Source of the DNA: Spirochaetota bacterium
GTDB lineage: Bacteria; Spirochaetota; Leptospiria; Turneriellales; Turneriellaceae
Direction: 5' to 3'
Length of the DNA stretch: 40,681 nt
NCBI GenBank assembly: GCA_017302045.1
Contig: JAFLED010000005.1
Coordinates: forward strand, 1 to 40,681
The position numbers and the translations under genes are program-made. This document shows, one piece after another, positions 339 to 11,172 of this stretch (within the stretch, counting starts at the first letter, position 1; each line of letters starts with the position of its first letter). Under the pieces are notes generated by a model. The model saw only the letters and a list, made by a program, of their open reading frames with translations, was not told the DNA's origin and searched no databases.

Positions 339-923
339 TTATTTCGCCCAGGCCAAACCTTCGTCGGCGTATTTACTTCCGGGAAACATCAGTTTCACTC
401 GTTCGAAATTCTGCCGCGCACGCTCCTTTTTTCCCTGTTTGAGTTGCGCCCAGCCGAGGCCCATCAGAACTGTGGCATCCGAGGGGTATTCGGCGGCCAG
501 CTCGGCATAATATTTTTCAGAACGCGGGAAATCCCCCGTGAGGTATGTGGCATAAGCGATCTTGATGCGCGCCGTATAGTTTCTAGGGTCGCTGCGCAGC
601 ACGGCCTGCGCTTCGATCTCTGCCTGTTTATACTGCCCGAGTGCGATCAGCGGTAAGAGCTTGCCGAGACGGGGCTCGAGCGAGTCGCTTTTGAGCAGCA
701 GCGCATTCTGGTAATGTTGCAACGAACGGGTGTAACTGCCCGCAAGATAAGCCACGTAACCGGCGCGCAGCGCAAAAAAATATTCTTTGGGATTCTCCGC
801 TGCGAGTTTTTCCATGCCCGCAAGCGCGTCGGCGTATTTGCCGTAGTATTCTTGTGTGTAGGTGTCTTGCAGCCCCGCGCCATAGAGCGAGGTTGCGCAG
901 AGCAGAATGCCGAAGTATTTCAA
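339..923 (-). CDS. Exported TPR-repeat protein
   Basis: The 194-aa product begins with a short signal peptide (MKYFGILLCATSLYGAG). The rest is tandem tetratricopeptide-like helical hairpins, seen as repeated 'A-L-x-x-x-x-P-x-x-x-x-x-x-x-L-G' patterns such as AVLRSDPRNYTARIKIAYA and YPSDATVLMGLGWAQLKQGK. TPRs are protein-protein scaffolds, so this is probably a periplasmic or outer-membrane-associated adaptor. Its ATG overlaps the end of the preceding gene by 4 nt (ATGA, 920-923), so it is probably translationally coupled to the TPR-barrel protein upstream, and the two products may work together. No catalytic motif is visible. Confidence 0.8.
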   Translation of the reverse strand: MKYFGILLCATSLYGAGLQDTYTQEYYGKYADALAGMEKLAAENPKEYFFALRAGYVAYLAGSYTRSLQHYQNALLLKSDSLEPRLGKLLPLIALGQYKQAEIEAQAVLRSDPRNYTARIKIAYATYLTGDFPRSEKYYAELAAEYPSDATVLMGLGWAQLKQGKKERARQNFERVKLMFPGSKYADEGLAWAK

Positions 924-2149
924 AATAAGCTCCCTGTAGCCGCGAATGTGAATGTGCCTGAGACTGGTGTGTCGCCGTTGATCGCCTTCCAGCGGCCATA
1001 CGTATAAGCCGCAGATATTTCAAGCCCCGCAAAGGGTTTGATGGCGAGGCGGCCAAAGGTAGAGAGTTCGAGCTCATCGAGTACATAGGTGAGTATCAGG
1101 CCGTTTTCCGCAAGCGGCGTAAAAAGGCTGCCATAGAGAGCACCAGCGCTGGCACAGAAAATCGAGAAACAATAACGCAACGACGCCGATGCCGCACCAT
1201 AAAAACTTGTCGTTTGGGTGTATTTAATGGCCTGCAGATTTGCGCCGAGCCCCAATGTCAATCCGCGGGCGAGCGGCATCTGGTATTGAGGGTTGAATTG
1301 CAGGCCCTTGTGACTGGGAAAAATCAGCGCATCTGCGCCAAAGCTGAAGTTTGAATAGATACTCGTTTTGTATGTTGCGCTGATCGTCACCGCATTGTCG
1401 AGCAGGCTGTAATTCGAAGACAGGTAGTGCCCCGTAAGGTTGAGGTGAGAAAGGTCAGAAAATAAAAAACCGGCCATGGCTTTGATCTCCCTGGTTTCAT
1501 AGCCGCTGGTCGATGTGGGATTTCCCAAATTGCTCTGCGCATAACCCGCGCCGAGGCTCATACCCGATTGGAAATTCCAGGTTGCGAAGGCGCCCGAGTC
1601 ATAACCCGAAGACTTGAGGCGCGAGCCCGCGAAGTTTGTGTTCTGGTAATACGACATCAGCATGCCTGCGGGCGCAGCCGTCACAGCCCGCGCACCGTGT
1701 TCGTCGATGAGGCCAGTGTAGATCTCGCGCGCACTCGACGAGTCGCCGTTTTCTTTGTACGCTGCGGCGAGGCGCATCTTGACCCAGAAGTTTTGGGGGT
1801 CGATAGAAAGCGCCGCGCGACCCCATTGAAGACTTTCTGAATATTTTTCGGCGCCGAGGTAGGCCCACTGTGCGCCGGCCTTCGCGTCGAGGTTTTGCGA
1901 TAACGAATCTGCCTTGAGATAATCTTCGCTCGCCGCGTCGTATTCGCCCAGCATCAGGTTACAATAACCACGGTTCATGAGGGCTATCGGGTAGTTGGGT
2001 TCGCTCGAGATTACCTGGTTCCAGATGCCGAGCGCAGAGAGATAGTTGCCGGATTGCATTTCGGAGAAGGCTTTTGTTTGGGTTTGAGCGAGAAGAGAAC
2101 TCAAGGTGGCTAAAAAAATGATAACTCCAACCCCTATCCCCCTCCCCAT
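920..2149 (-). CDS. TPR protein with C-terminal outer-membrane beta-barrel
   Basis: The product has about 409 aa. A signal peptide (MGRGIGVGVIIFLATLSSLLAQ) is followed by TPR-like helices over residues 25-160 and then a region rich in alternating aromatic and small residues. It ends '...FTFAATGSLF', with the terminal Phe typical of outer-membrane barrels. I chose the ATG at 2149 because it gives a proper signal peptide. An in-frame ATG at 2215 lies inside the upstream gene and adds 22 residues that are not signal-like. The n-region of the signal peptide is encoded by a GC-rich repeat (2123-2194). The function is unknown; a TPR module in front of a barrel suggests an envelope assembly or export role. 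It is coupled to the next TPR gene by an ATGA overlap. Confidence 0.75.
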   Translation of the reverse strand: MGRGIGVGVIIFLATLSSLLAQTQTKAFSEMQSGNYLSALGIWNQVISSEPNYPIALMNRGYCNLMLGEYDAASEDYLKADSLSQNLDAKAGAQWAYLGAEKYSESLQWGRAALSIDPQNFWVKMRLAAAYKENGDSSSAREIYTGLIDEHGARAVTAAPAGMLMSYYQNTNFAGSRLKSSGYDSGAFATWNFQSGMSLGAGYAQSNLGNPTSTSGYETREIKAMAGFLFSDLSHLNLTGHYLSSNYSLLDNAVTISATYKTSIYSNFSFGADALIFPSHKGLQFNPQYQMPLARGLTLGLGANLQAIKYTQTTSFYGAASASLRYCFSIFCASAGALYGSLFTPLAENGLILTYVLDELELSTFGRLAIKPFAGLEISAAYTYGRWKAINGDTPVSGTFTFAATGSLF

Positions 2150-2194
2150 GACATGGAGAGGGGAGAAAGATTTTGCAAATGCCAGGGTGGAGTT
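2123..2194. repeat. GC-rich hairpin repeat, copy 1 (MITE/REP-like)
   Basis: A 72-bp element is bounded by inverted AACTCC/GGAGTT ends. Its core is a C-rich arm, CCCCTCCCCATG, facing a G-rich arm, ATGGAGAGGGG. The core matches the first half of the repeat at 31660-31745 nearly base for base (CCCCTCCCC-Ay-…-TGGAGAGGGGAG). It ends exactly where the stop codon of the urea-transporter fusion begins and supplies the start and first codons of the TPR-barrel gene. No transposase is present. Confidence 0.6.
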
Positions 2195-4338
2195 CAAGCC
2201 GCTGACAGTACCCATTTGGCTCCATTGCGTTCTGCGGTAATTTTTCCAGGGAAGCCGCCATTGAGTTCGGCCGAGGTCGCGAGCACGACGCGCGTGCCGT
2301 TGGTGATCGTCGAAACCAGCGGCGCACCTGTATACGATTGCGGCACCGCGCTCCAGCGCAGGGCGACGCGGTCGGTGAAGGGCAGCAGAATATCTTTGAT
2401 GAGCCTCACCGGCAGAGAAACGAAGTATTTGTAAGAGATATTTTCTCCATACGCGAAGCGCGCCGCGGAGAAGGGCACGCGGTAATAGGCATTGAAGAGT
2501 AAAAAGAGTGCGCTCTGGCGGCTGCCGCTATAGTCGAGTGCCGCAAACCAGTCATTCGACGCCGAATACAGCAGGCGGTCGCCTTCGCGGTTTTCGATGA
2601 AGCGCGTACCGAGAAAGTCGATTTTGACTTCCCACTCTTCCATGAGCTGTTTTTTTTCGGGCGTCTCCAGCGCGACGCGCATGACCTGCCCCGGGGCGAG
2701 CGTGAAAAACGTCTTCAGGTTAAAATCGGGTGCGAGGTTGGCGACCACCTCGCCGGCTTTGGGTACGCCGTTGAAATGGATTTTCGAAACGCCGTTGTGC
2801 AAGATGTACTGCGTGAGCGCAACAGGTAGCGTGGCGCTGCCGATCTCGGGTGTTGCCTGAAAGTGCAAATGCAGGTGTGGTTCGGCCGAGCGGCCCGAAT
2901 TGCCGGCCTGTGCCAGCTTTGTGCCGGCGATGACATAGTCGCCTTCTTTGACCGTGACCGAGTTTTTTTTCAGATGGCAGACAAGGGAGAACAGCGCGGG
3001 GCCGTGCTGAATGAGTACCAGATTACCCCAATTCTCACGCAGGTTCATGGCTCCGAGTTCATTGTCGTCGAGATGCGATACCACGCGGCGCACGGTGCCG
3101 GCCGCGACCGCGAGCACGGGCAGGCCGAAGGTGTAATAATCTTCTACCGAGGCGGATTGATTTTTGCGCAGAGCACCCTCTTCAGAGAGAGCCATAAAGT
3201 CGAGACTGGCATACCACTCACCCTGGTGTGTGTATTCGCCGTGGTAGCCCTGCGAGACCTTCCATTTACCCCAGAACGGCAGACGAATGTCGAGTCCCAA
3301 ATCGCCGAAGCGGCCTTGCCGCGATTTAAAAAAATCGAGATTATATTCGGGAGAGCCAGGCAGAAAATCGACAGGCCGCAGGTTTTTGTTGTAGAGCAAT
3401 TTAATACAGTATAGAAAAAGCAATGTCGTGAGGGCAAATGGCAGCGTGAGCACCGGCATGTTGAAGCTCACGAAGAAAATCTTGATGAACGAGGCGACGG
3501 TCGCGGTCGCTAGTGTCGCGAGTATGGCCAGTGTAAATGCCGCAGGCCCTGGAACGAGAAAGATGCCACCGAGCGCCATGGCGGTGAGAATATAGTTGAA
3601 AGCGACGAGCCCCCCCGTCATGTCGTTGAGGTCGCCTTTCAGAATGAGGTGAAATGCCGCGCCGGCGGCGAAACCTGCGAGCGAAAGAAGAAATCCTAAC
3701 CGGCTCGAGATAATGAGCGCGAGCATGATTGTGAGCCCTGCCCACGGGCTCGATTGGAAAAAAATCGCACCCAGCGACTTGAGGTAATACAACGCATAGC
3801 GCGGGATTTCGGGAAAATAAACATCGTAGGGAAATGCCTCGGCCTTTTGCAGCGCGGCAGCGTCGTAGTTGTAGAACGCGAGATAGCTGATCGAGCTGAC
3901 GAGCACGAAGGGAATCGAGAGCGCCGGTATATTAAAGAAGTAACCGAAGATATGATCCAGCGCAATGTTGACAAAGATCAGAAGAACGACGGCAACGAAG
4001 AGAATAAAGAGAGCGGTCGCGCCAAAGGCATAGTAGTAGCTGAATGAAAGGCCGAGCAATAGGGCGTTGAAACCGATCAGGCCCTTACGGATTTTATCTT
4101 CGTGCACACCTACAATACGCGCCAGCAGGTTGGCGGTCATTATGGCGAAGATGCCAAAGAGCCCGGCTTTGAAGTTGAAGAAGGTTGCCCCGAGAGCGAT
4201 CAGACCGATGAGCTTTCGGTCGCTGAAGAGTATGTTCGAATAAGAGCGGAGAAGGGATTCAACCCTCACCCCCCAACCCCCTCTCCTGAAGGAGAGGGGG
4301 AGTCTGAATTCCGGGGTGGGGTCAGCAAAAGTATCCAC
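2194..4338 (-). CDS. Urea transporter family protein fused to an M23 metallopeptidase domain
   Basis: The product has 714 aa. Residues about 30-330 are a polytopic membrane domain of the urea transporter (UT/SLC14) type, with the signature-like GLIGFNALLLGL, a second half containing GGLVAFNYILTAMALGG, and PVLTLPFALTTLLFLY. Residues about 355-520 are a LytM/M23 domain: YTHQGEWYASLDF supplies the first His/Asp pair and PHLHLHF the second His pair, with the glycine-rich NSGRSAEPH before it. About 190 further residues of beta-rich sequence follow. A channel fused to a peptidoglycan endopeptidase-like domain is unusual. The start is GTG at 4338, 2 nt after the decarboxylase stop; a second GTG at 4269 is an alternative, because residues 7-25 are encoded by a repeat element. 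Substrate and protease activity are inferred from family resemblance. Confidence 0.8.
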   Translation of the reverse strand: MDTFADPTPEFRLPLSFRRGGWGVRVESLLRSYSNILFSDRKLIGLIALGATFFNFKAGLFGIFAIMTANLLARIVGVHEDKIRKGLIGFNALLLGLSFSYYYAFGATALFILFVAVVLLIFVNIALDHIFGYFFNIPALSIPFVLVSSISYLAFYNYDAAALQKAEAFPYDVYFPEIPRYALYYLKSLGAIFFQSSPWAGLTIMLALIISSRLGFLLSLAGFAAGAAFHLILKGDLNDMTGGLVAFNYILTAMALGGIFLVPGPAAFTLAILATLATATVASFIKIFFVSFNMPVLTLPFALTTLLFLYCIKLLYNKNLRPVDFLPGSPEYNLDFFKSRQGRFGDLGLDIRLPFWGKWKVSQGYHGEYTHQGEWYASLDFMALSEEGALRKNQSASVEDYYTFGLPVLAVAAGTVRRVVSHLDDNELGAMNLRENWGNLVLIQHGPALFSLVCHLKKNSVTVKEGDYVIAGTKLAQAGNSGRSAEPHLHLHFQATPEIGSATLPVALTQYILHNGVSKIHFNGVPKAGEVVANLAPDFNLKTFFTLAPGQVMRVALETPEKKQLMEEWEVKIDFLGTRFIENREGDRLLYSASNDWFAALDYSGSRQSALFLLFNAYYRVPFSAARFAYGENISYKYFVSLPVRLIKDILLPFTDRVALRWSAVPQSYTGAPLVSTITNGTRVVLATSAELNGGFPGKITAERNGAKWVLSAA
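4262..4325. repeat. GC-rich hairpin repeat, copy 2
   Basis: The core is a perfect 10-bp stem, CCCCCTCTCC (4277-4286) / GGAGAGGGGG (4291-4300), with a TGAA loop. It is flanked by CCCTCACCCC on one side and GGGGTGGGG on the other. It belongs to the same family as the copies at 2123-2194 and 31660-31745. It lies inside the annotated 5' end of the urea-transporter fusion, where its translation reads as a low-complexity P/R/G stretch. Confidence 0.6.
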
Positions 4339-4340
4339 GA

Positions 4341-5765
4341 TTAGCTTTCCATCGCGACCATATCTTCCATCGTCTCGCGGCGCTTGATGAGTTTGACTTC
4401 ACCCTTGGGCGAGACGAGTACCACCGCAGGTTTCATTTCGATGAACTGCATCGACTGCGTCACGTTATAAGCCCCAACCGGATGAATAACCACCTGTTCG
4501 CCGCGGTGCAGATTTGGTAGCAGACACTTCTCGCGCACGACGTCGATGTTCATGCACAGTGGCCCGTAGAGAATCACATCTTCCCAGGCACCCGAGTAAT
4601 GCTGTGTCGGCGAAACTTTCAGGTCATACCAGGTGGATGTATAAAGAAGGTTCACCCCTGCATCGAGAATGAGCGCGCGCTGCCCGCTCGCGAGCATTTT
4701 CGAACCCGCGACCGATGAGATCAGAAATCCGGCCTCGTCGACCAGAGCCCGCCCTGTTTCCAAAAAGAGTTGCGGCGGCTCTTCGCCGGGAAAATTTTCA
4801 TAGAGTGTATCGCAGATGGCTTCGGCATACGCATCGAAGCTGGGAATCCAAGAGCAGTCTGCTTTGTAGTGGGCTTTGAGTTTATTTTTCGAGGCGAAAC
4901 CGCCGCCGAGATCGATGTAGCGCACGGGCTGCGAAAGTTCTTCGCGCAGCTGTTTGTAGAACTTGCTGACCTTGTCGGCTGCCTTCTTATAAGGGCCCGT
5001 TTCATACATGAAAGTGCCGATGTGTGAATGGACTCCGATAATTTTGAGTTTGCCATCCGAGGTTGCAATCCGCGCGGCCTCGAGCGCATGACCGCTTTCG
5101 AGATTGAACCCGAAGCGGCTCCACTGCGGCACCATGCCGGTATCGAGATTGAGTCGCAGAGCAATTTCAACCGGCCGCCCCAGCTCGTCGGATATTTTCT
5201 TTAGATCGCGTATTTCGTCGAGATGGTCGGCATGAATTCTCGCGCCTTCGCTCACGGCCCGCTTTAAAATTTCATAGGTCTTGTAAGGGCCGTTGAAGAT
5301 AATTTTATCGCCGGGAATGCCGTTATGGCGGGCCTTCAGATATTCGAACCCCGAAACAACCTCGGCCCAACTGCCTTCGCTATGAAAGACATTGCAGATC
5401 GCGTCGAGGTAGTTCGTCTTATATGACCACGCGGCCTGAAACGAGGGGTAGCGCGATGAAAATGCCTGGTTGAGCTCGCGCACTTTGCGGCGTAAGGTGT
5501 TCTCAGAGTAAACGAAGAGCGGCGAACCGAACTTTGAGACGAGTTCTGCGATCGAAACGCCGTCGATGCTCAACACGGGTTCAGGTACGCTGTAACCGCC
5601 GAATTTATTGGCGGCACCCATGTATTGTTTGCGTATCACCGGGCGCGCATATGGTTTGCGTGCACCAGCACCTGCTGTGCCGCGCAAACCATGGACATCC
5701 GTGCCATCTGTATTGCGCGCGGATGGGCCTCCGGCGGGGCTGTTTTGTTCGTTGTTATTTTTCAT
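4341..5765 (-). CDS. PLP-dependent decarboxylase of the diaminopimelate/ornithine decarboxylase type (fold III), with N-terminal extension
   Basis: The 474-aa product carries the family landmarks in order: the PLP lysine in SYKTN (Lys116), HSHIGT, the glycine loop DLGGGF, ETGRALV (the usual EPGR with Pro replaced by Thr), GPLCMN with the active-site Cys, and VGAYNVTQ. The family decarboxylates D- or L-amino acids such as meso-DAP, ornithine, or carrier-bound glutamate. About 65 residues precede the catalytic core. They are Gly/Ala/Asn-rich and contain KPYARPVIRKQYMG, a Y-x-x-P-x-I pattern. The position 3 nt after an ATP-grasp gene, which itself overlaps a PqqD-like gene, points to a dedicated modification pathway rather than housekeeping lysine synthesis. 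The substrate is unknown. Confidence 0.85.
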   Translation of the reverse strand: MKNNNEQNSPAGGPSARNTDGTDVHGLRGTAGAGARKPYARPVIRKQYMGAANKFGGYSVPEPVLSIDGVSIAELVSKFGSPLFVYSENTLRRKVRELNQAFSSRYPSFQAAWSYKTNYLDAICNVFHSEGSWAEVVSGFEYLKARHNGIPGDKIIFNGPYKTYEILKRAVSEGARIHADHLDEIRDLKKISDELGRPVEIALRLNLDTGMVPQWSRFGFNLESGHALEAARIATSDGKLKIIGVHSHIGTFMYETGPYKKAADKVSKFYKQLREELSQPVRYIDLGGGFASKNKLKAHYKADCSWIPSFDAYAEAICDTLYENFPGEEPPQLFLETGRALVDEAGFLISSVAGSKMLASGQRALILDAGVNLLYTSTWYDLKVSPTQHYSGAWEDVILYGPLCMNIDVVREKCLLPNLHRGEQVVIHPVGAYNVTQSMQFIEMKPAVVLVSPKGEVKLIKRRETMEDMVAMES

Positions 5766-5768
5766 TTT

Positions 5769-6875
5769 TTATCCTTGTGCGAAGACACTCGCCCGCTGCG
5801 CGGGCATTGTTTTTAGAGGGAGACGGGTTTGAGTTGCGTGTGCGACCATGCCGCTTGTCGAAAGCGATTCCAGCTGCGCCATCGGTATGATCTCATCGCG
5901 CGCGTGGCGGATGAAAACCTTACCGACGTCGTAATCGGTACGCGGTTCGACAGGCGCACCGAGCGCGAGTTGCACATGCATCGCTGGCAGATTGATGCCC
6001 GCCGCAGTCGCGAGGTAAACCCAGGCGGGAAACCGTGGATTCATTTCGATGAGAAATACCTCTTCGGTTTTGTTTTCGACGATGAACTCGAGTTCAAAGC
6101 CGCCATCCCAGTTGAGATATTGTATCAGCCGGCGTGTCATCTCGAGAATCTTTTCGTTGCGTATCGTGACACCCGACCAGGCCTTGCCTTTATCGGTGAG
6201 AAAAAGTTTTTTCATCGCCACGGCGCCATAGAGCTTGCCGCGCTTCGCGAGGCCTGCGACATTCATCTCTTCGCCCTGGATCATGTTCTGCGCGATCACG
6301 GGCACTCCCCACTGTGAGGCGAGCTTATAAAACCAGCCGACGGCTTCTTCGGGCGAATACGCGGCATACGCTTCATAGAACTGCCCTTTGACCAAAAGGG
6401 GAAATCCCAGTTGATCGAAGGCATCGCGCAGCGCCGACACGTCGGAAATCCGCACGGTCTTGGGTGTTTTCACGATATCTTCGGGGATTTTTTCTGCGAG
6501 CGTGGGCTTCTCGCGCATCGCCAGACTTTCTTTCAGGGGCAGTAAGAGTTTAATGCCGAGATAACGCAGCTCGCCTTCGATAGCGATATAGTTCTCGAGT
6601 TCTGAGTCTAACGTCGGTACAATCACATCGATTTTTTCGGTCTTGTGGATTTCGGCGATGCGCGTTAAGAGCGCGCGCGGGCCTGTGTTGGGGTAGGGAG
6701 TGAGATAACAGGCCGAGACGAGATCAGACATATAGTTACCGGCGTCGAGCACGCCGTACGTGATACCGATATGGCGCTGGCGAAAACCTGACTCTTTCAG
6801 CGAACGTAGCACCGCGAGACCCGGTGCCGGGCTGTCGGCGGCATTGAGGCCCGTGACGCAGATCGTCGGACTCAT
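5769..6875 (-). CDS. ATP-grasp carboxylate-amine ligase
   Basis: The 368-aa product has an N-terminal Rossmann-like pre-ATP-grasp domain (ICVTGLNAADSPAPGLAVLRSL). The ATP-grasp fold follows: a nucleotide-binding Lys in FPLLVKGQFYEAYAA, the hinge segment VPVIAQNMIQGEEMNVAG, and the Mg-binding motif LIEMNPRFPAW (E-x-N-P-R). Such enzymes activate a carboxylate as an acyl-phosphate and join it to an amine or thiol. Its ATG overlaps the PqqD-like gene by 4 nt, and its stop lies 3 nt before the decarboxylase, so all three are probably made together. A plausible scheme is that the ligase attaches an amino acid to a peptide or carrier and the decarboxylase then acts on it, as BtrJ and BtrK do in butirosin synthesis. 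This is inference from gene content. Confidence 0.85.
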   Translation of the reverse strand: MSPTICVTGLNAADSPAPGLAVLRSLKESGFRQRHIGITYGVLDAGNYMSDLVSACYLTPYPNTGPRALLTRIAEIHKTEKIDVIVPTLDSELENYIAIEGELRYLGIKLLLPLKESLAMREKPTLAEKIPEDIVKTPKTVRISDVSALRDAFDQLGFPLLVKGQFYEAYAAYSPEEAVGWFYKLASQWGVPVIAQNMIQGEEMNVAGLAKRGKLYGAVAMKKLFLTDKGKAWSGVTIRNEKILEMTRRLIQYLNWDGGFELEFIVENKTEEVFLIEMNPRFPAWVYLATAAGINLPAMHVQLALGAPVEPRTDYDVGKVFIRHARDEIIPMAQLESLSTSGMVAHATQTRLPLKTMPAQRASVFAQG

Positions 6876-7129
6876 GCCGCACCGCCTGTAATGAGGCCCA
6901 CTTCTTTGAGCTGTAGCAGTGCATCGCTGACGTCTTCGAGCGCCTGCGCCGGCGACACTTCGAAATCTGTGGTGAGCGCCTCGGCGATCTGCCGTTGCTG
7001 CAGACCGTGCTTCAGCGCTTTGAGAATAAAGATCGCCGATTCATTGAGGGTGAATGTATTACCCGTCGCCGGATCGAACAAAAACCCGGTTTCCGAGAGC
7101 GCTAGATTCTTGAGTTTATTGAGTTCCAT
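6872..7129 (-). CDS. PqqD-like (RRE-type) small protein
   Basis: The 85-aa product fits the PqqD/RiPP recognition element pattern. A beta-hairpin opening (ETGFLFDPATGNTFTLNESA) is followed by a winged-helix body: FILKALKHGLQQRQIAEAL, then AQALEDVSDALLQLKEVGLI. PqqD proteins are peptide chaperones that hold a precursor leader for modifying enzymes. I start it at ATG 7129, preceded by AAAGG; an upstream TTG at 7174 would add 15 unlikely residues. It is the first gene of the minus-strand run and overlaps the ATP-grasp start. No obvious separate precursor peptide gene was found beside it. An acyl-carrier role is unlikely because there is no D-S-L/L-x-S phosphopantetheine motif. Confidence 0.7.
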   Translation of the reverse strand: MELNKLKNLALSETGFLFDPATGNTFTLNESAIFILKALKHGLQQRQIAEALTTDFEVSPAQALEDVSDALLQLKEVGLITGGAA

Positions 7130-7230
7130 ATTGGCCTTTGTAGTGTAGAGCCCCGACCACCCAAAGCCGGACAAATTTTTGTTGCCTTGCCAAATCGCTT
7201 TTGGGCCATTAAAGAAGATTTCGCGCGCCT

Positions 7231-8151
7231 ATGCAGGAAATACCGCTACACCAGATCGATAATTTCCTGATGCTTCTCAAATGGGCGCATCAAAAGGGAT
7301 TCGAAACCGCCGAGCCGCATATCATGGAGCCATTGCGGTTATATTACGGGCATAAAGACCATGAGGTGCATGAAAACCTGCACAAGAATCTCGAGCTGCA
7401 GAAGAAGGTGAAAGAGTGGCGCATCGTCGCCAACATCTACCGGCACATTTTTCATGTCCTGTGTTTCGAGCCAGACCATCATCCCTTATTCAAGATGCTG
7501 GGCGCGTTTCTCATCGATTTGCAGGCTGAACCGGCACTGCGCAAAACGACATTCGCTTTCGAATTTTTTAAGGCATTCGAATTTCCGTTGAAAAACCTGC
7601 AGTCGCTGGTGTCTAAAGAGGTCATGACGGGTATTCAAGAAGTCTTCGAGAGCCACGACGATGTACATGTTGTGGTTTCGCATAACCTGACGACGAACCA
7701 GCGCGAAGCCCTAAACGCCGAAGCGCGCGAGCTCTATAACAAGATAGAACTTGCTTATGCGCGCGGCGACGAGGCGAATCTCAGCTATCTGCTGGCGCAG
7801 TTCACCGGTCGTTTCTGCAATTTCCCGGAAGTGAAGTTTCGTAACGAAGTCGATGCCATCATCGTCAAGATCGCCGAAAATAACGGCGCCTTCAAGCAAG
7901 ATATGCGCTCGCGTCTTGCCGTCCGCCTTTTCCAGTCGATCGCGCGTTCGGCCGAAAAAATGGATATCAAGACTGCAGTGCGCGGTATTACGACTTATAT
8001 TATTACTTTCCAGGACGATCTCTCGCTGCCTTACCGCGAAGAGCTCGACCATATCGAAGAGAAGATGTATCACTTTATTCAGCAGCACAACCTCTGGCAT
8101 CGCGTGAAATTGCAGACCAGCAACTCGCGGCCGCAGGTGGTCAGGTCATAG
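7231..8151 (+). CDS. Helical protein of unknown function beside a STAS protein
   Basis: This 306-aa soluble protein has no signal peptide or membrane segment. It is almost entirely predicted helix, rich in Glu, Lys, His and Phe, for example HEVHENLHKNLELQKKVKEWR and DQDMRSRLAVRLFQSIARSAEKMD-like stretches. I do not recognise a family. It starts divergently from the PqqD-like gene across about 100 bp and lies 7 nt before the STAS gene, so the two are very likely co-transcribed. A regulatory partner of the STAS protein is a reasonable guess from position only. It shows neither the HATPase kinase motifs expected of an RsbW-type anti-sigma factor nor any other enzymatic signature. Confidence 0.7.
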   Translation: MQEIPLHQIDNFLMLLKWAHQKGFETAEPHIMEPLRLYYGHKDHEVHENLHKNLELQKKVKEWRIVANIYRHIFHVLCFEPDHHPLFKMLGAFLIDLQAEPALRKTTFAFEFFKAFEFPLKNLQSLVSKEVMTGIQEVFESHDDVHVVVSHNLTTNQREALNAEARELYNKIELAYARGDEANLSYLLAQFTGRFCNFPEVKFRNEVDAIIVKIAENNGAFKQDMRSRLAVRLFQSIARSAEKMDIKTAVRGITTYIITFQDDLSLPYREELDHIEEKMYHFIQQHNLWHRVKLQTSNSRPQVVRS

Positions 8152-8158
8152 GGGAATC

Positions 8159-8494
8159 ATGAGCATTCGGGTATCAAAACGCAACACAGAAAAAGACGCG
8201 ATTTTTCAGTTGGAGGGCAGGCTCGACACGGCCGGCAGTGCAATTCTCAAGCTCGAACTGGATATGGCAACGCAGAACCCAACCGGTAACATTATCATCG
8301 ATATGAGTAAGGTCAGCTTCATCAGTTCTGCGGGTATCGGCATTACTGTCAAAGCGCAGTCGATTCTGAAACAGAAAGGTTTCGAAGTGCGTGTCGCCGC
8401 AGCAACTGAAGAGGTCAAAAAGGTTTATGATCTGCTCGGTTTCTCTCATGTGGTGAAGCTTTTCCCAACGCTCAACGACGCGCTGAAAGCCTGA
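8159..8494 (+). CDS. STAS-domain anti-sigma factor antagonist
   Basis: The 111-aa product is a single STAS domain: FQLEGRLDTAGSAILKLEL, then NIIIDMSKVSFISSAGIGI, which contains the Ser-Ser-Ala-Gly site where the anti-sigma kinase phosphorylates family members, then a C-terminal amphipathic helix (EEVKKVYDLLGFSHVVKLF). Antagonists of this type bind an anti-sigma factor when unphosphorylated and release the sigma factor; SpoIIE-type phosphatases reactivate them. Two such phosphatases lie in this window (9658-11172 and 22893-24587), but no kinase or sigma-B-type factor is adjacent. It probably shares a transcript with the unknown helical protein just upstream. Confidence 0.92.
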   Translation: MSIRVSKRNTEKDAIFQLEGRLDTAGSAILKLELDMATQNPTGNIIIDMSKVSFISSAGIGITVKAQSILKQKGFEVRVAAATEEVKKVYDLLGFSHVVKLFPTLNDALKA

Positions 8495-8643
8495 GTTATA
8501 AGCTCGCGAAGCTGCGTTAAATCCGCGAACGCGGCGCGGCAATTTTTCTCTGCACCGATACAGGCCGAATGGCCGAAAATGGAAGTAGCCCCCAATGCAC
8601 CTCGGCCTACGGTTTCGAGGATACCTGGGGTATATTCTGAATT

Positions 8644-9615
8644 ATGCGACGCATACGGTCATTTGCAAAAACAACATCGTATCTCCTGACTTTTATGATT
8701 TTTTGTGGGGGCATCGCGCAGGGCGCCGACACAACCGCCAAACCTGCGGATTCCGCACTGGCTAAAGTCGAGAATTTCGGTCCTAACCCCGGCAACCTTT
8801 CGATGTACGAATACGTACCCGAGTATGTCGCCGAAAACAAGCTGGCGCTGGTTGTGGCGCTGCACGGATGCAACGGTTCGGCGAAACAATTTTCGAAAGC
8901 GGGCTTCAACGAACTCGCGGAAAAGTACGGCTTCATCGTACTTTATCCCGAACAAAAAACGGAAAATAACAATATCCGCTGTTTTAATCACTCGCGCCCG
9001 AATATGGCATCGGCGCGCGAGCGCGAGTCTGCGTCGATCTTACAGATGATCAGTTATATGATTGCAGAACATGGCATCAGTAAGAAGTACGTTTTTATTA
9101 CGGGGTTCTCTTCAGGCGGCCAGTTTGCGAATATTCTCGCGGCGACATACCCCGAAACTTTCAGGGCCGCGGCTATCATCGGCGCGGGAGGTTATGTCTG
9201 TAAGCCGGGCCACGCAGGTATACGCGAGTTTGCCGAATGCGACGACGAAGAAGACGAAATGGACGAGGCGCTGCTGCACATTCCTGGAAAGCCGCTGCGC
9301 TGGCCCAAGATCAGCATCTGGCACGGCAAAAAAGATAAAAATGTGCCTTATAGCGCCATGGAGCTGGCGGTCGAGCAATGGAAGTTTGCGCATAAGATTC
9401 GCCGTAAACGCCATACGAAAAAGAAGCTACCCGGTGACATACTCTACCAGGCTTACAAAACTTCGCGCGGGCATGTCATGATCGAAAGTTATTCGATGAA
9501 CTCGCGCGCACATACGGTGCCCGTGAGTGAAAACTGCGGTATTCCCGGCGGGGATTTTAGCCTTGAAAAAATATGTTTTGCGCGCAAGGCGATTCAGTTT
9601 TTTGGCATTCATTGA
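8644..9615 (+). CDS. Secreted PHB-depolymerase-like esterase (alpha/beta hydrolase)
   Basis: The 323-aa product starts with a signal peptide (RRIRSFAKTTSYLLTFMIFCGGIAQGAD). It then shows the poly-hydroxybutyrate depolymerase/feruloyl esterase pattern: an oxyanion-hole strand LVVALHGCNGSAKQF, the nucleophile elbow GFSSGGQFAN (G-x-S-x-G), a candidate Asp in IWHGKKDKNVP and a candidate His in SRAHTVPV near the C-terminus. It would hydrolyse esters outside the cytoplasm; the substrate (polyester, acylated sugar or lipid) cannot be read from sequence. The insert ECDDEEDEMDE between the Ser and Asp is strikingly acidic. It stands alone between the STAS and phosphatase genes; TATATT 11 nt before the ATG could be a -10 element, which would leave a very short leader. 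Confidence 0.85.
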   Translation: MRRIRSFAKTTSYLLTFMIFCGGIAQGADTTAKPADSALAKVENFGPNPGNLSMYEYVPEYVAENKLALVVALHGCNGSAKQFSKAGFNELAEKYGFIVLYPEQKTENNNIRCFNHSRPNMASARERESASILQMISYMIAEHGISKKYVFITGFSSGGQFANILAATYPETFRAAAIIGAGGYVCKPGHAGIREFAECDDEEDEMDEALLHIPGKPLRWPKISIWHGKKDKNVPYSAMELAVEQWKFAHKIRRKRHTKKKLPGDILYQAYKTSRGHVMIESYSMNSRAHTVPVSENCGIPGGDFSLEKICFARKAIQFFGIH

Positions 9616-9657
9616 GCGTCTCCGGGACGTATAGCCCGCGAGCCGGGCACTAAGCCT

Positions 9658-11172
9658 GTGGATATACCCCGTAAAAAAATATCCATCATCACCAAGATAT
9701 TTTCTGTTTTTTTGGCGATTACGGCTCTCGATCTTTCGGCAATTTATATTTTTACAGCAACCGGGCAGATCGACCAGATCGGCCGTAACGGGCTGCTCAT
9801 TGCCGAAAATGCCGCGTTGAAACTCCTGCAGCTTTTGCGCGAAGTAAAATCGATCGACCCGATGGCCGATGCGGGTTTCAGAAAGAAATTCGCAATCGCA
9901 GCCGACTCGGGCAGCGCTTCGTTTAAAGACTGCGCGACGATCGGGCCCGACGGCAAGCCTGTGGGCGATACCGGCGGACGTATTTCGCCGCGCGCGCTCA
10001 AGGCATTGCGTCTTTATGAAGCCGAAAGTCGTCTGTTCTTCAGCGATCTCGCGCTCGGTGATTTTTCTGCGGATGTTTTTGTACCTTTTCGGCCCGGCGC
10101 ACAAAGCGGGCTCTATGTTTTTGCCTGCAGCGTGCCGCTCGAGTCGATACGCGAATCTTTCGACAGACTCTTGCGTGTGAGTCTCATCATTCTCGCGGTA
10201 ACGCTGGTCATGCAGGCGGGCCTCGCCTGGTTTATCTACTTTCTTTTCATACGCCGCCTGCGCGCGCTCGAAAAAGCCACCGTCAAGATCGGCCAGGGCG
10301 ATTTCAGCGAGGTGTTCAAGACCGGCAAGCGCAGCGACGAAATCGATCACCTCGCCGAAACATTCAACGAGATGCGTCTCGCGCTGGCAGAAAAGACCCG
10401 CGTGCTCGAGAATACACTGTTCGATCTTGAGAAGGCAAACTTTAATCTCGAAGGCGATCTGATTCTTGGTGAAGAAATTCAGCAAAGTATTCTACCGGAA
10501 AAAAATGCGGGAAAAAATCTCTCGTGGCAGGTGACATACCGCCCGCTGAGCAAAGTTTCCGGCGATCTCTACGACATTTACGATCTCGCGGGCGGGGCGA
10601 CGGGTATTCTGCAGTTCGACGCGTCGGGCCACGGCGTACCGGCTGCGCTGTTGACCATGATGGCGAAGACCGCTTTCGTCGAAGCGATTCAAAAAACCGT
10701 GTGGCCCAACCAGGTCATTGCTTTCGTCAACGACGAGCTCTCGCAGCATCTGCAAAAAACCGGCAACTTTCTCACGGCGTTCTATGCCGTTGTCAGGCCG
10801 AACGGTAAGATGACCTATTGCAATGCCGCGCACACGCGTATCGTGATTCTGCGCGCGGGGGGCAAGATTGAACTTCTCGACCCGACCTCGCTCAGCATCG
10901 GCTTTGCACCGCCGGGTATCGGTTCGTTTCACGCCGCCGAGGCCGATCTACACCCCGGCGACCGGGTGATTGTACATACCGACGGTCTCAGCGAAACCGT
11001 CACGAAGTCGGGAAAACCCTTCGAGACAGACGGGCTTTTGGCTCTGCTCGAGGCGAACCGCCGGCTCGATCTCAAGGCGATGCATGCCGCGGTCGTCGAC
11101 GGCTGGAACGCGCAGGTCGAACGCAGCGCGATCGAAGATGATGTGACTATTGTTTCTTTCGAATTCCGATGA
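9658..11172 (+). CDS. Membrane SpoIIE/RsbU-type PP2C phosphatase with HAMP domain
   Basis: The 504-aa product has a first membrane segment (ITKIFSVFLAITALDLSAIYIF), an extracytoplasmic sensor region of about 140 residues, and a second membrane segment (SLIILAVTLVMQAGLAWFIYFLF). A HAMP linker follows (RRLRALEKATVKIGQGDFSEVF), then a short coiled coil and a PP2C/SpoIIE domain. Metal-binding signatures are visible: KVSGDLYDIYDL, FDASGHGVPAALLTMM, VHTDGLSE and EDDVTIV. Such proteins dephosphorylate STAS antagonists in response to an external signal. The start is GTG at 9658. Its stop overlaps the start of the TPR gene (ATGA, 11169-11172), so the two are coupled. The STAS protein at 8159 is a natural candidate substrate, inferred from proximity. 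Confidence 0.92.
   Translation: MDIPRKKISIITKIFSVFLAITALDLSAIYIFTATGQIDQIGRNGLLIAENAALKLLQLLREVKSIDPMADAGFRKKFAIAADSGSASFKDCATIGPDGKPVGDTGGRISPRALKALRLYEAESRLFFSDLALGDFSADVFVPFRPGAQSGLYVFACSVPLESIRESFDRLLRVSLIILAVTLVMQAGLAWFIYFLFIRRLRALEKATVKIGQGDFSEVFKTGKRSDEIDHLAETFNEMRLALAEKTRVLENTLFDLEKANFNLEGDLILGEEIQQSILPEKNAGKNLSWQVTYRPLSKVSGDLYDIYDLAGGATGILQFDASGHGVPAALLTMMAKTAFVEAIQKTVWPNQVIAFVNDELSQHLQKTGNFLTAFYAVVRPNGKMTYCNAAHTRIVILRAGGKIELLDPTSLSIGFAPPGIGSFHAAEADLHPGDRVIVHTDGLSETVTKSGKPFETDGLLALLEANRRLDLKAMHAAVVDGWNAQVERSAIEDDVTIVSFEFR

Follow-up and report, generated by a model that had tools for sequence, protein, structure and literature searches.

A leader-like decarboxylase tail and a candidate leader-recognition assembly in a spirochaete operon

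The minus strand of a 40,681-nucleotide stretch of DNA from a Spirochaetota bacterium of the Turneriellaceae (contig JAFLED010000005.1, positions 1 to 40,681; hereafter the window) encodes a PqqD-like protein, an ATP-grasp enzyme and a fold-III pyridoxal phosphate (PLP)-dependent decarboxylase. The decarboxylase carries a conserved tail that resembles a lasso-peptide leader, and the PqqD-like protein resembles the domains that bind such leaders. We consider it slightly better than an even chance that the three proteins form a two-enzyme biosynthetic pathway assembled by a recognition element (RRE) of the kind known from ribosomally synthesized and post-translationally modified peptides (RiPPs), in which the decarboxylase would be docked by its tail.

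The operon and its distribution

An earlier note on this DNA had described the trio as a three-gene unit. The families, coordinates (Table 1) and spacing were confirmed with Pfam (PqqD, 2.7e-14; ATPgrasp_Ter, 1.3e-11; Orn_Arg_deC_N, 8.8e-33, together with its C-terminal domain, 2.5e-10). The PqqD-like and ATP-grasp genes overlap by 4 nucleotides, and 3 nucleotides separate the ATP-grasp gene from that of the decarboxylase. The unit proved incomplete, since the trio is the front of a tightly packed six-gene operon that runs on through a urea-transporter/M23 peptidase fusion and two tetratricopeptide repeat (TPR) proteins; each of these three genes starts within the preceding gene or a few bases from it.

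A tblastn search with the six window proteins found the PqqD-like, ATP-grasp and decarboxylase genes in the same order at loci L012–L017, L022 and L023, to which relatives of the ATP-grasp enzyme had pointed. The cellular loci number nine: the window, L013–L017, L022 and L023, which represent eight genomes of the phylum, and L012, a metagenome-assembled genome (MAG) labelled Proteobacteria that has the same gene order as the window. With one phage contig, the trio order is present at nine loci besides the window (eight cellular and one phage). The earlier note had named adjacency in this genome alone as grounds for refutation, and this does not apply. The urea-transporter fusion comes after the decarboxylase wherever a cellular contig extends far enough, and both TPR genes occupy the same place in L014, L015, L016 and L022. 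Among 393 genomes of the phylum, matches to the decarboxylase (<1e-60) and to the urea-transporter part fall in an identical set of eight; ATP-grasp matches (<1e-20) fall in those eight and in G203, where a distant copy stands alone. The operon is patchy and, within the genus to which the window belongs, occurs in two of seven genomes. Matrices of pairwise identity for the trio proteins correlate with r = 0.92–0.97 and, given also the same order at nine further loci, the arrangement is not due to chance.

Scans of the viral collection gave one trio contig (L110), and no second trio copy was found among the matches listed from the plasmid and phage collections. A description of this gene combination was not found in the open-licence literature. 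A defence system was considered and rejected, as four of the proteins had no PADLOC match.

The decarboxylase and the ATP-grasp ligase

The best NCBIfam name for the decarboxylase is lysA, which would suit an ordinary diamino-acid decarboxylase, either a second LysA or a polyamine enzyme, with the neighbouring RRE uninvolved. We regard this as very unlikely. The score against TIGR01048 (LysA) is 234.9, below the cut-off of 297.9, and every carrier genome has a separate gene that matches LysA better. The residues that read a side-chain amine or the carboxylate of diaminopimelate (DAP) are replaced: the motif is CMNID in this family as compared to CE[SN]xD in all LysA proteins compared, CMQHD in FigC and CTPED in BtrK, and the RPxxY segment of LysA, which supplies the arginine for the DAP carboxylate, is replaced by YTSTWYD. 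That the enzyme strictly accompanies the ligase and the urea-transporter fusion also counts against this reading. Judging from its active-site positions, the decarboxylase is not LysA and lacks the residues for recognizing DAP or ornithine in their free form, and its assignment as a second LysA or polyamine enzyme was rejected on the active-site differences and the separate LysA genes.

FigC, SbnH, AcsE, MccE and BtrK all decarboxylate substrates with a blocked side chain. The closest solved relative of the window enzyme by sequence is the N-citrylornithine decarboxylase FigC (4.6e-52), and a Foldseek search with the AlphaFold2 (AF2) model likewise placed an N-citrylornithine decarboxylase closest by predicted fold (7kh2, 4.8e-35). 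In FigC, the acidic residue by which a free amine on the side chain is contacted has given way to a methionine beside the catalytic cysteine, and the positions that serve basic side chains or the carboxylate of DAP are taken by T327, T330 and Y331 (PMC7857480). These four positions align with M405, T376, W379 and Y380 of the window decarboxylase, so that the methionine after the catalytic cysteine is shared and T376 and Y380 are the same residues as T327 and Y331. The loss of the arginine that reads DAP is likewise common to FigC and the window enzyme. In contrast, the citrate-binding H357, R387 and N389 of FigC are replaced by I407, Q437 and M439 and therefore citrylornithine is not the expected substrate. 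The window enzyme differs further from FigC and FslC in having no NIS synthetase nearby and in scoring 218.7 against an FslC cut-off of 500. From its residues, the decarboxylase is expected to act on an amino acid with a blocked side chain. In the closest relative, the decarboxylase gene (L013:2124-3641) has an in-frame low-complexity insertion of ~40 amino acids near residue 237.

The earlier note had taken BtrJ and BtrK as the closest logic. These act in butirosin synthesis with BtrI as the carrier, and both systems would follow one general scheme, in which an ATP-grasp enzyme ligates and a fold-III enzyme then decarboxylates the blocked amino acid. However, the two compare only weakly: the BtrK matches have values of 2.6e-24 and 4.6e-24 as compared to 4.6e-52 for the N-citrylornithine decarboxylase, the motif is CMNID rather than CTPED, and the window operon contains no member of an acyl carrier protein family. 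Orthology to BtrJ and BtrK was rejected on the weaker match and the different motif. What stood from that note was a dedicated, co-inherited ligase–decarboxylase unit set apart from DAP and ornithine metabolism, given the conserved order and the absence of the residues that read DAP or ornithine (PMC7857480).

The ATP-grasp enzyme retains the metal-binding sequence E277-x-N279-P-R281, and VKGxxYEAY takes the place of the usual glycine-rich loop. Its AF2 model (pLDDT = 81.5) was matched best by 2pn1 in Foldseek, and the amino-acid ligases BacD/YwfE and RizA were also matched. The window enzyme shares the fold and the catalytic E-x-N-x-R with the PRK12767-type 2pn1, BacD/YwfE and RizA, but differs in the VKGxxYEAY loop and is only 14–17% identical to them. 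Homologues in L018 and L024 are lone genes outside any trio. The distant L024 homologue (L024:9340-10449) is without the EMNPR metal-binding motif and is possibly inactive; near it lies an AraC-type regulator, like one near the L023 operon.

A natural fusion of the two enzymes is encoded on a Streptomyces zaomyceticus plasmid (NZ_CP108525.1, L061:7992-10268), where an ATP-grasp enzyme and a fold-III decarboxylase form one 758-amino-acid protein. The ATP-grasp part is of the same type as the window ligase (30.8% identical, with KGxxYEA and NPRFPAW), and the decarboxylase part has CMEND. The fusion supports consecutive action of both enzymes. No PqqD domain was found in the fusion protein or in the six neighbours scanned, which suggests that a covalent fusion can stand in for docking. 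The fusion is annotated as a hypothetical protein, and methyltransferase and desaturase genes lie nearby.

The PqqD-like protein and the decarboxylase tail

Discrete RREs of lasso-peptide systems recognize the motif [Y/W]xxPx[L/V/I/A/F/Y] (PMC13381572). When the PqqD-like proteins of all nine loci were combined in a profile, it matched the lasso RREs TfuB1 (6jx3, 2.4e-13), TbiB1 (2.3e-8) and PbaB1 (5.3e-4) ahead of PqqD itself (0.014–0.071); these RREs have structures determined together with their leaders. At 85 amino acids, the window protein is also of the size of such discrete domains (about 80–100). The best-ranked NCBIfam model was lasso_PqqD at 46.2 bits, which is under the 70-bit cut-off. 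The protein also resembles the PqqD protein of the HPr-rel-A system (TIGR04353), scoring 45.7 and above the cut-off of 35; however, no HprK-related kinase was found among the window genes scanned (920-8151). From an alignment and published contacts, the invariant D66 corresponds to D70 of LppB, the aspartate that bonds the leader tyrosine, and N29, present in eight of the nine proteins, corresponds to N33, the asparagine that fixes the proline kink; F26, L28, position 70, L74 and L79 would form the hydrophobic pockets according to the LppB and PbaB1 contacts (PMC13381572). In seven of the eight genomes it is the sole PqqD match. By fold family, pocket residues and nearest relatives, the PqqD-like protein is a probable lasso-type leader-binding RRE.

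The partner motif is found on the decarboxylase itself, in nine of nine cellular proteins, and is absent in the phage copy. The tail may be considered in terms of a short, mostly basic stretch, the motif [YW]xxPxI, a GxANK[FL]G block and a variable linker of about 10–12 residues that leads to the folded enzyme, an arrangement common to all nine cellular loci. In the window decarboxylase the tyrosine is Y39, the proline P42 and the invariant lysine Lys54. In several loci the tail is the extreme N-terminus (MEKKLYTRPII..., MKKDYIRPTI...), and in one locus tryptophan replaces the tyrosine, as is also seen in lasso leaders. The A, N, K and G of ANK[FL]G are invariant across the nine loci. A comparison of the two closest genomes shows eight synonymous changes and one nonsynonymous change over the 21 codons of the tail, as compared to three and seven in the next 12 codons of the linker. 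The decarboxylase tail is under purifying selection. Only 2 of 125 other open reading frames (ORFs) of the loci have the motif within their first 60 amino acids.

Like TfuB1, TbiB1, PbaB1 and LppB, the window RRE is a PqqD-type domain with the tyrosine-binding aspartate and the proline-kink asparagine, is matched by profile, and is accompanied by an N-terminal [Y/W]xxPx[L/V/I] motif on a partner. In contrast to lasso systems, the motif lies on an enzyme and the operon is without a lasso cyclase, leader peptidase or core peptide; relative to the lasso leader pattern YxxPxLxxxG, the downstream glycine of the tail is at +11 rather than +9. On the simplest reading, the decarboxylase tail would be the ligand of the RRE.

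This bears on the proposal of the earlier note that the PqqD-like protein takes the place of a carrier, as BtrI does for BtrJ and BtrK. A small protein translated together with these two enzymes would suit such a carrier. However, the protein has the fold family and leader-binding residues of a lasso RRE, a candidate ligand is present in the decarboxylase tail, which had gone unnoticed, and the decarboxylase resembles FigC more than BtrK. We consider this carrier role of the PqqD-like protein most improbable.

The tail could instead mimic a leader merely to join a complex in which the RRE binds a separate precursor, as in a true RiPP pathway. RiPP pathways are where such RREs are known, and their clusters can include ATP-grasp enzymes (PMC12710340), but the decarboxylase is the sole motif-bearing ORF that recurs from locus to locus, no YxxP leader precedes the other ANKFG sites of the eight genomes, and the tail and any precursor that shared its motif would have to vie for a single pocket. 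The gene families of the operon and its flanks included no asparagine synthetase-like cyclase or leader peptidase. A RiPP pathway of this kind is thus judged unlikely, and a separate lasso-motif precursor peptide was rejected because a search of all loci, and of the eight genomes by pattern, gave none that recurred. Azospirillum matches that reach the tail region are ordinary DAP decarboxylases that overlap it by chance.

Proposed assembly and the rest of the operon

In the RRE-assembled pathway, the ATP-grasp enzyme would spend ATP on coupling an acid with an amine or a thiol and so block the side chain of an amino acid, and the PLP enzyme would then remove the alpha-carboxylate of the conjugate. 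The PqqD-like RRE would grip the decarboxylase tail as its ligand with the GxANKFG block touching the ligase, and this grip would either hold the ligase and decarboxylase together or switch the ligase on. A ribosomal precursor peptide would not be required. The GxANKFG block has a position comparable to that part of LPP leaders which makes no contact with the RRE and is believed to engage the modifying enzyme (PMC13381572). As a laboratory parallel, fusing a leader to the front of a RiPP enzyme is reported to support full modification (PMC10634744).

Several observations weigh against this proposal. The strongest comes from the 65.7 kb viral contig IMGVR_UViG_3300047160_011268 (L110), which belongs to a tailed phage since it encodes a DNA polymerase, helicase, major head protein, endolysin and tail fibre. 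The trio lies at L110:3444-5922, ~2.4 kb from the polymerase gene, in the same order with overlapping or adjoining genes and without the transporter genes. In its core the phage decarboxylase shows 48% identity, and it keeps CMNID, yet it has no tail (AYNRQTV, with the proline lost and no ANKFG) while the RRE gene is retained. This copy is the main evidence against any model centred on the tail. In addition, residues 1–57 of the window decarboxylase are disordered in the AF2 single-chain model, the nearest relatives of the ATP-grasp enzyme point to no particular substrate, and a precursor may lie far from the operon or have an unfamiliar form. Since GxANKFG is conserved beyond the residues that would contact the RRE, pure docking may not be the sole job of the tail.

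The tail might accordingly be read as a covalent carrier, a built-in counterpart of BtrI or LysW, that the RRE presents so that the ATP-grasp enzyme can charge Lys54 or another GxANKFG residue with an amino acid, which the tethered decarboxylase would then decarboxylate in cis. The invariant block outside the usual RRE contact zone, the variable linker before the folded enzyme and the capacity of FigC-like pockets for bulky side-chain conjugates would fit such a role. On the other hand, the phage decarboxylase has neither the lysine nor the block, and the Streptomyces fusion, if functional, needs neither tail nor RRE. We doubt this carrier role of the tail to much the same degree as the RiPP pathway. 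To our knowledge, leader recognition is known only from ribosomal-peptide pathways. The more elaborate proposition, in which leader recognition is applied to enzymes, the leader-like tail doubles as a carrier charged at Lys54 with decarboxylation in cis, and the trio is also used by a phage, is a little less probable still.

Returning to the RRE-assembled pathway, the second half of the operon may move its product across the envelope or process it there, a role suggested by protein families and signal peptides. The fusion protein has a UT domain (3e-59, full-length coverage) and a Peptidase_M23 domain (1.5e-14) whose metal-binding His/Asp and HxH motifs are kept in the complete homologues; its ~200 C-terminal residues match no family. 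By a rough hydropathy and charge estimate, a basic segment follows the last membrane helix and the M23 domain may therefore be cytoplasmic. Both TPR proteins have signal peptides by inspection and would be secreted.

Table 1. Features of the operon in the window.
Feature	Position	Strand	Basis
Discrete RRE (PqqD-like), 85 aa, probable	6872..7129	-	Pfam PqqD, profile match to TfuB1, pocket residues
ATP-grasp ligase, 368 aa	5769..6875	-	Pfam, AF2 model, Foldseek
Fold-III PLP decarboxylase, FigC-like, 474 aa; PLP lysine K116, catalytic C404	4341..5765	-	Pfam, AF2 model, Foldseek
Leader-like decarboxylase tail, residues 37-56, KPYARPVIRKQYMGAANKFG	5598..5657	-	Conserved in 9/9 cellular loci
Decarboxylase specificity motif C404-M-N-I-D408	4542..4556	-	Alignment; residue roles from PMC7857480
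Urea transporter (27-310) + M23 peptidase (405-494) + C-terminal region; GTG start	2194..4338	-	Pfam
TPR protein, signal peptide, probable C-terminal beta-barrel	920..2215	-	TPR families; barrel predicted from sequence
Small TPR protein, signal peptide, last operon gene	339..923	-	Pfam TPR

Downstream of the operon in two relatives (L014:134-4305 and L022:1-3742) lie genes for an NMT1/THI5-like binding protein and a sensor kinase/receiver/cyclase protein. A cyclic nucleotide (cNMP)-binding protein is encoded upstream of the operon in L014 and L022 and downstream in L015. These neighbours may regulate the operon. In the window, a divergent group at 7231-11172 encodes an unassigned 306-amino-acid protein, a small protein resembling a STAS-type anti-sigma factor antagonist, and a protein resembling HAMP/SpoIIE-type phosphatases; the sister genome L013 shares the 306-amino-acid and the STAS-like protein.

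If the RRE-assembled pathway is correct, RREs would not be bound to ribosomal precursors and could serve as adaptors between enzymes by way of leader-like tails, with a 20-residue peptide as a directly testable case. PqqD-like genes that lack a precursor would then be read differently in genome mining. A biosynthetic operon not described before, with its urea-transporter/M23 fusion, would also be defined; it is present in 8 of 393 genomes of the phylum and in a MAG filed in another, and a tailed phage carries its bare trio.

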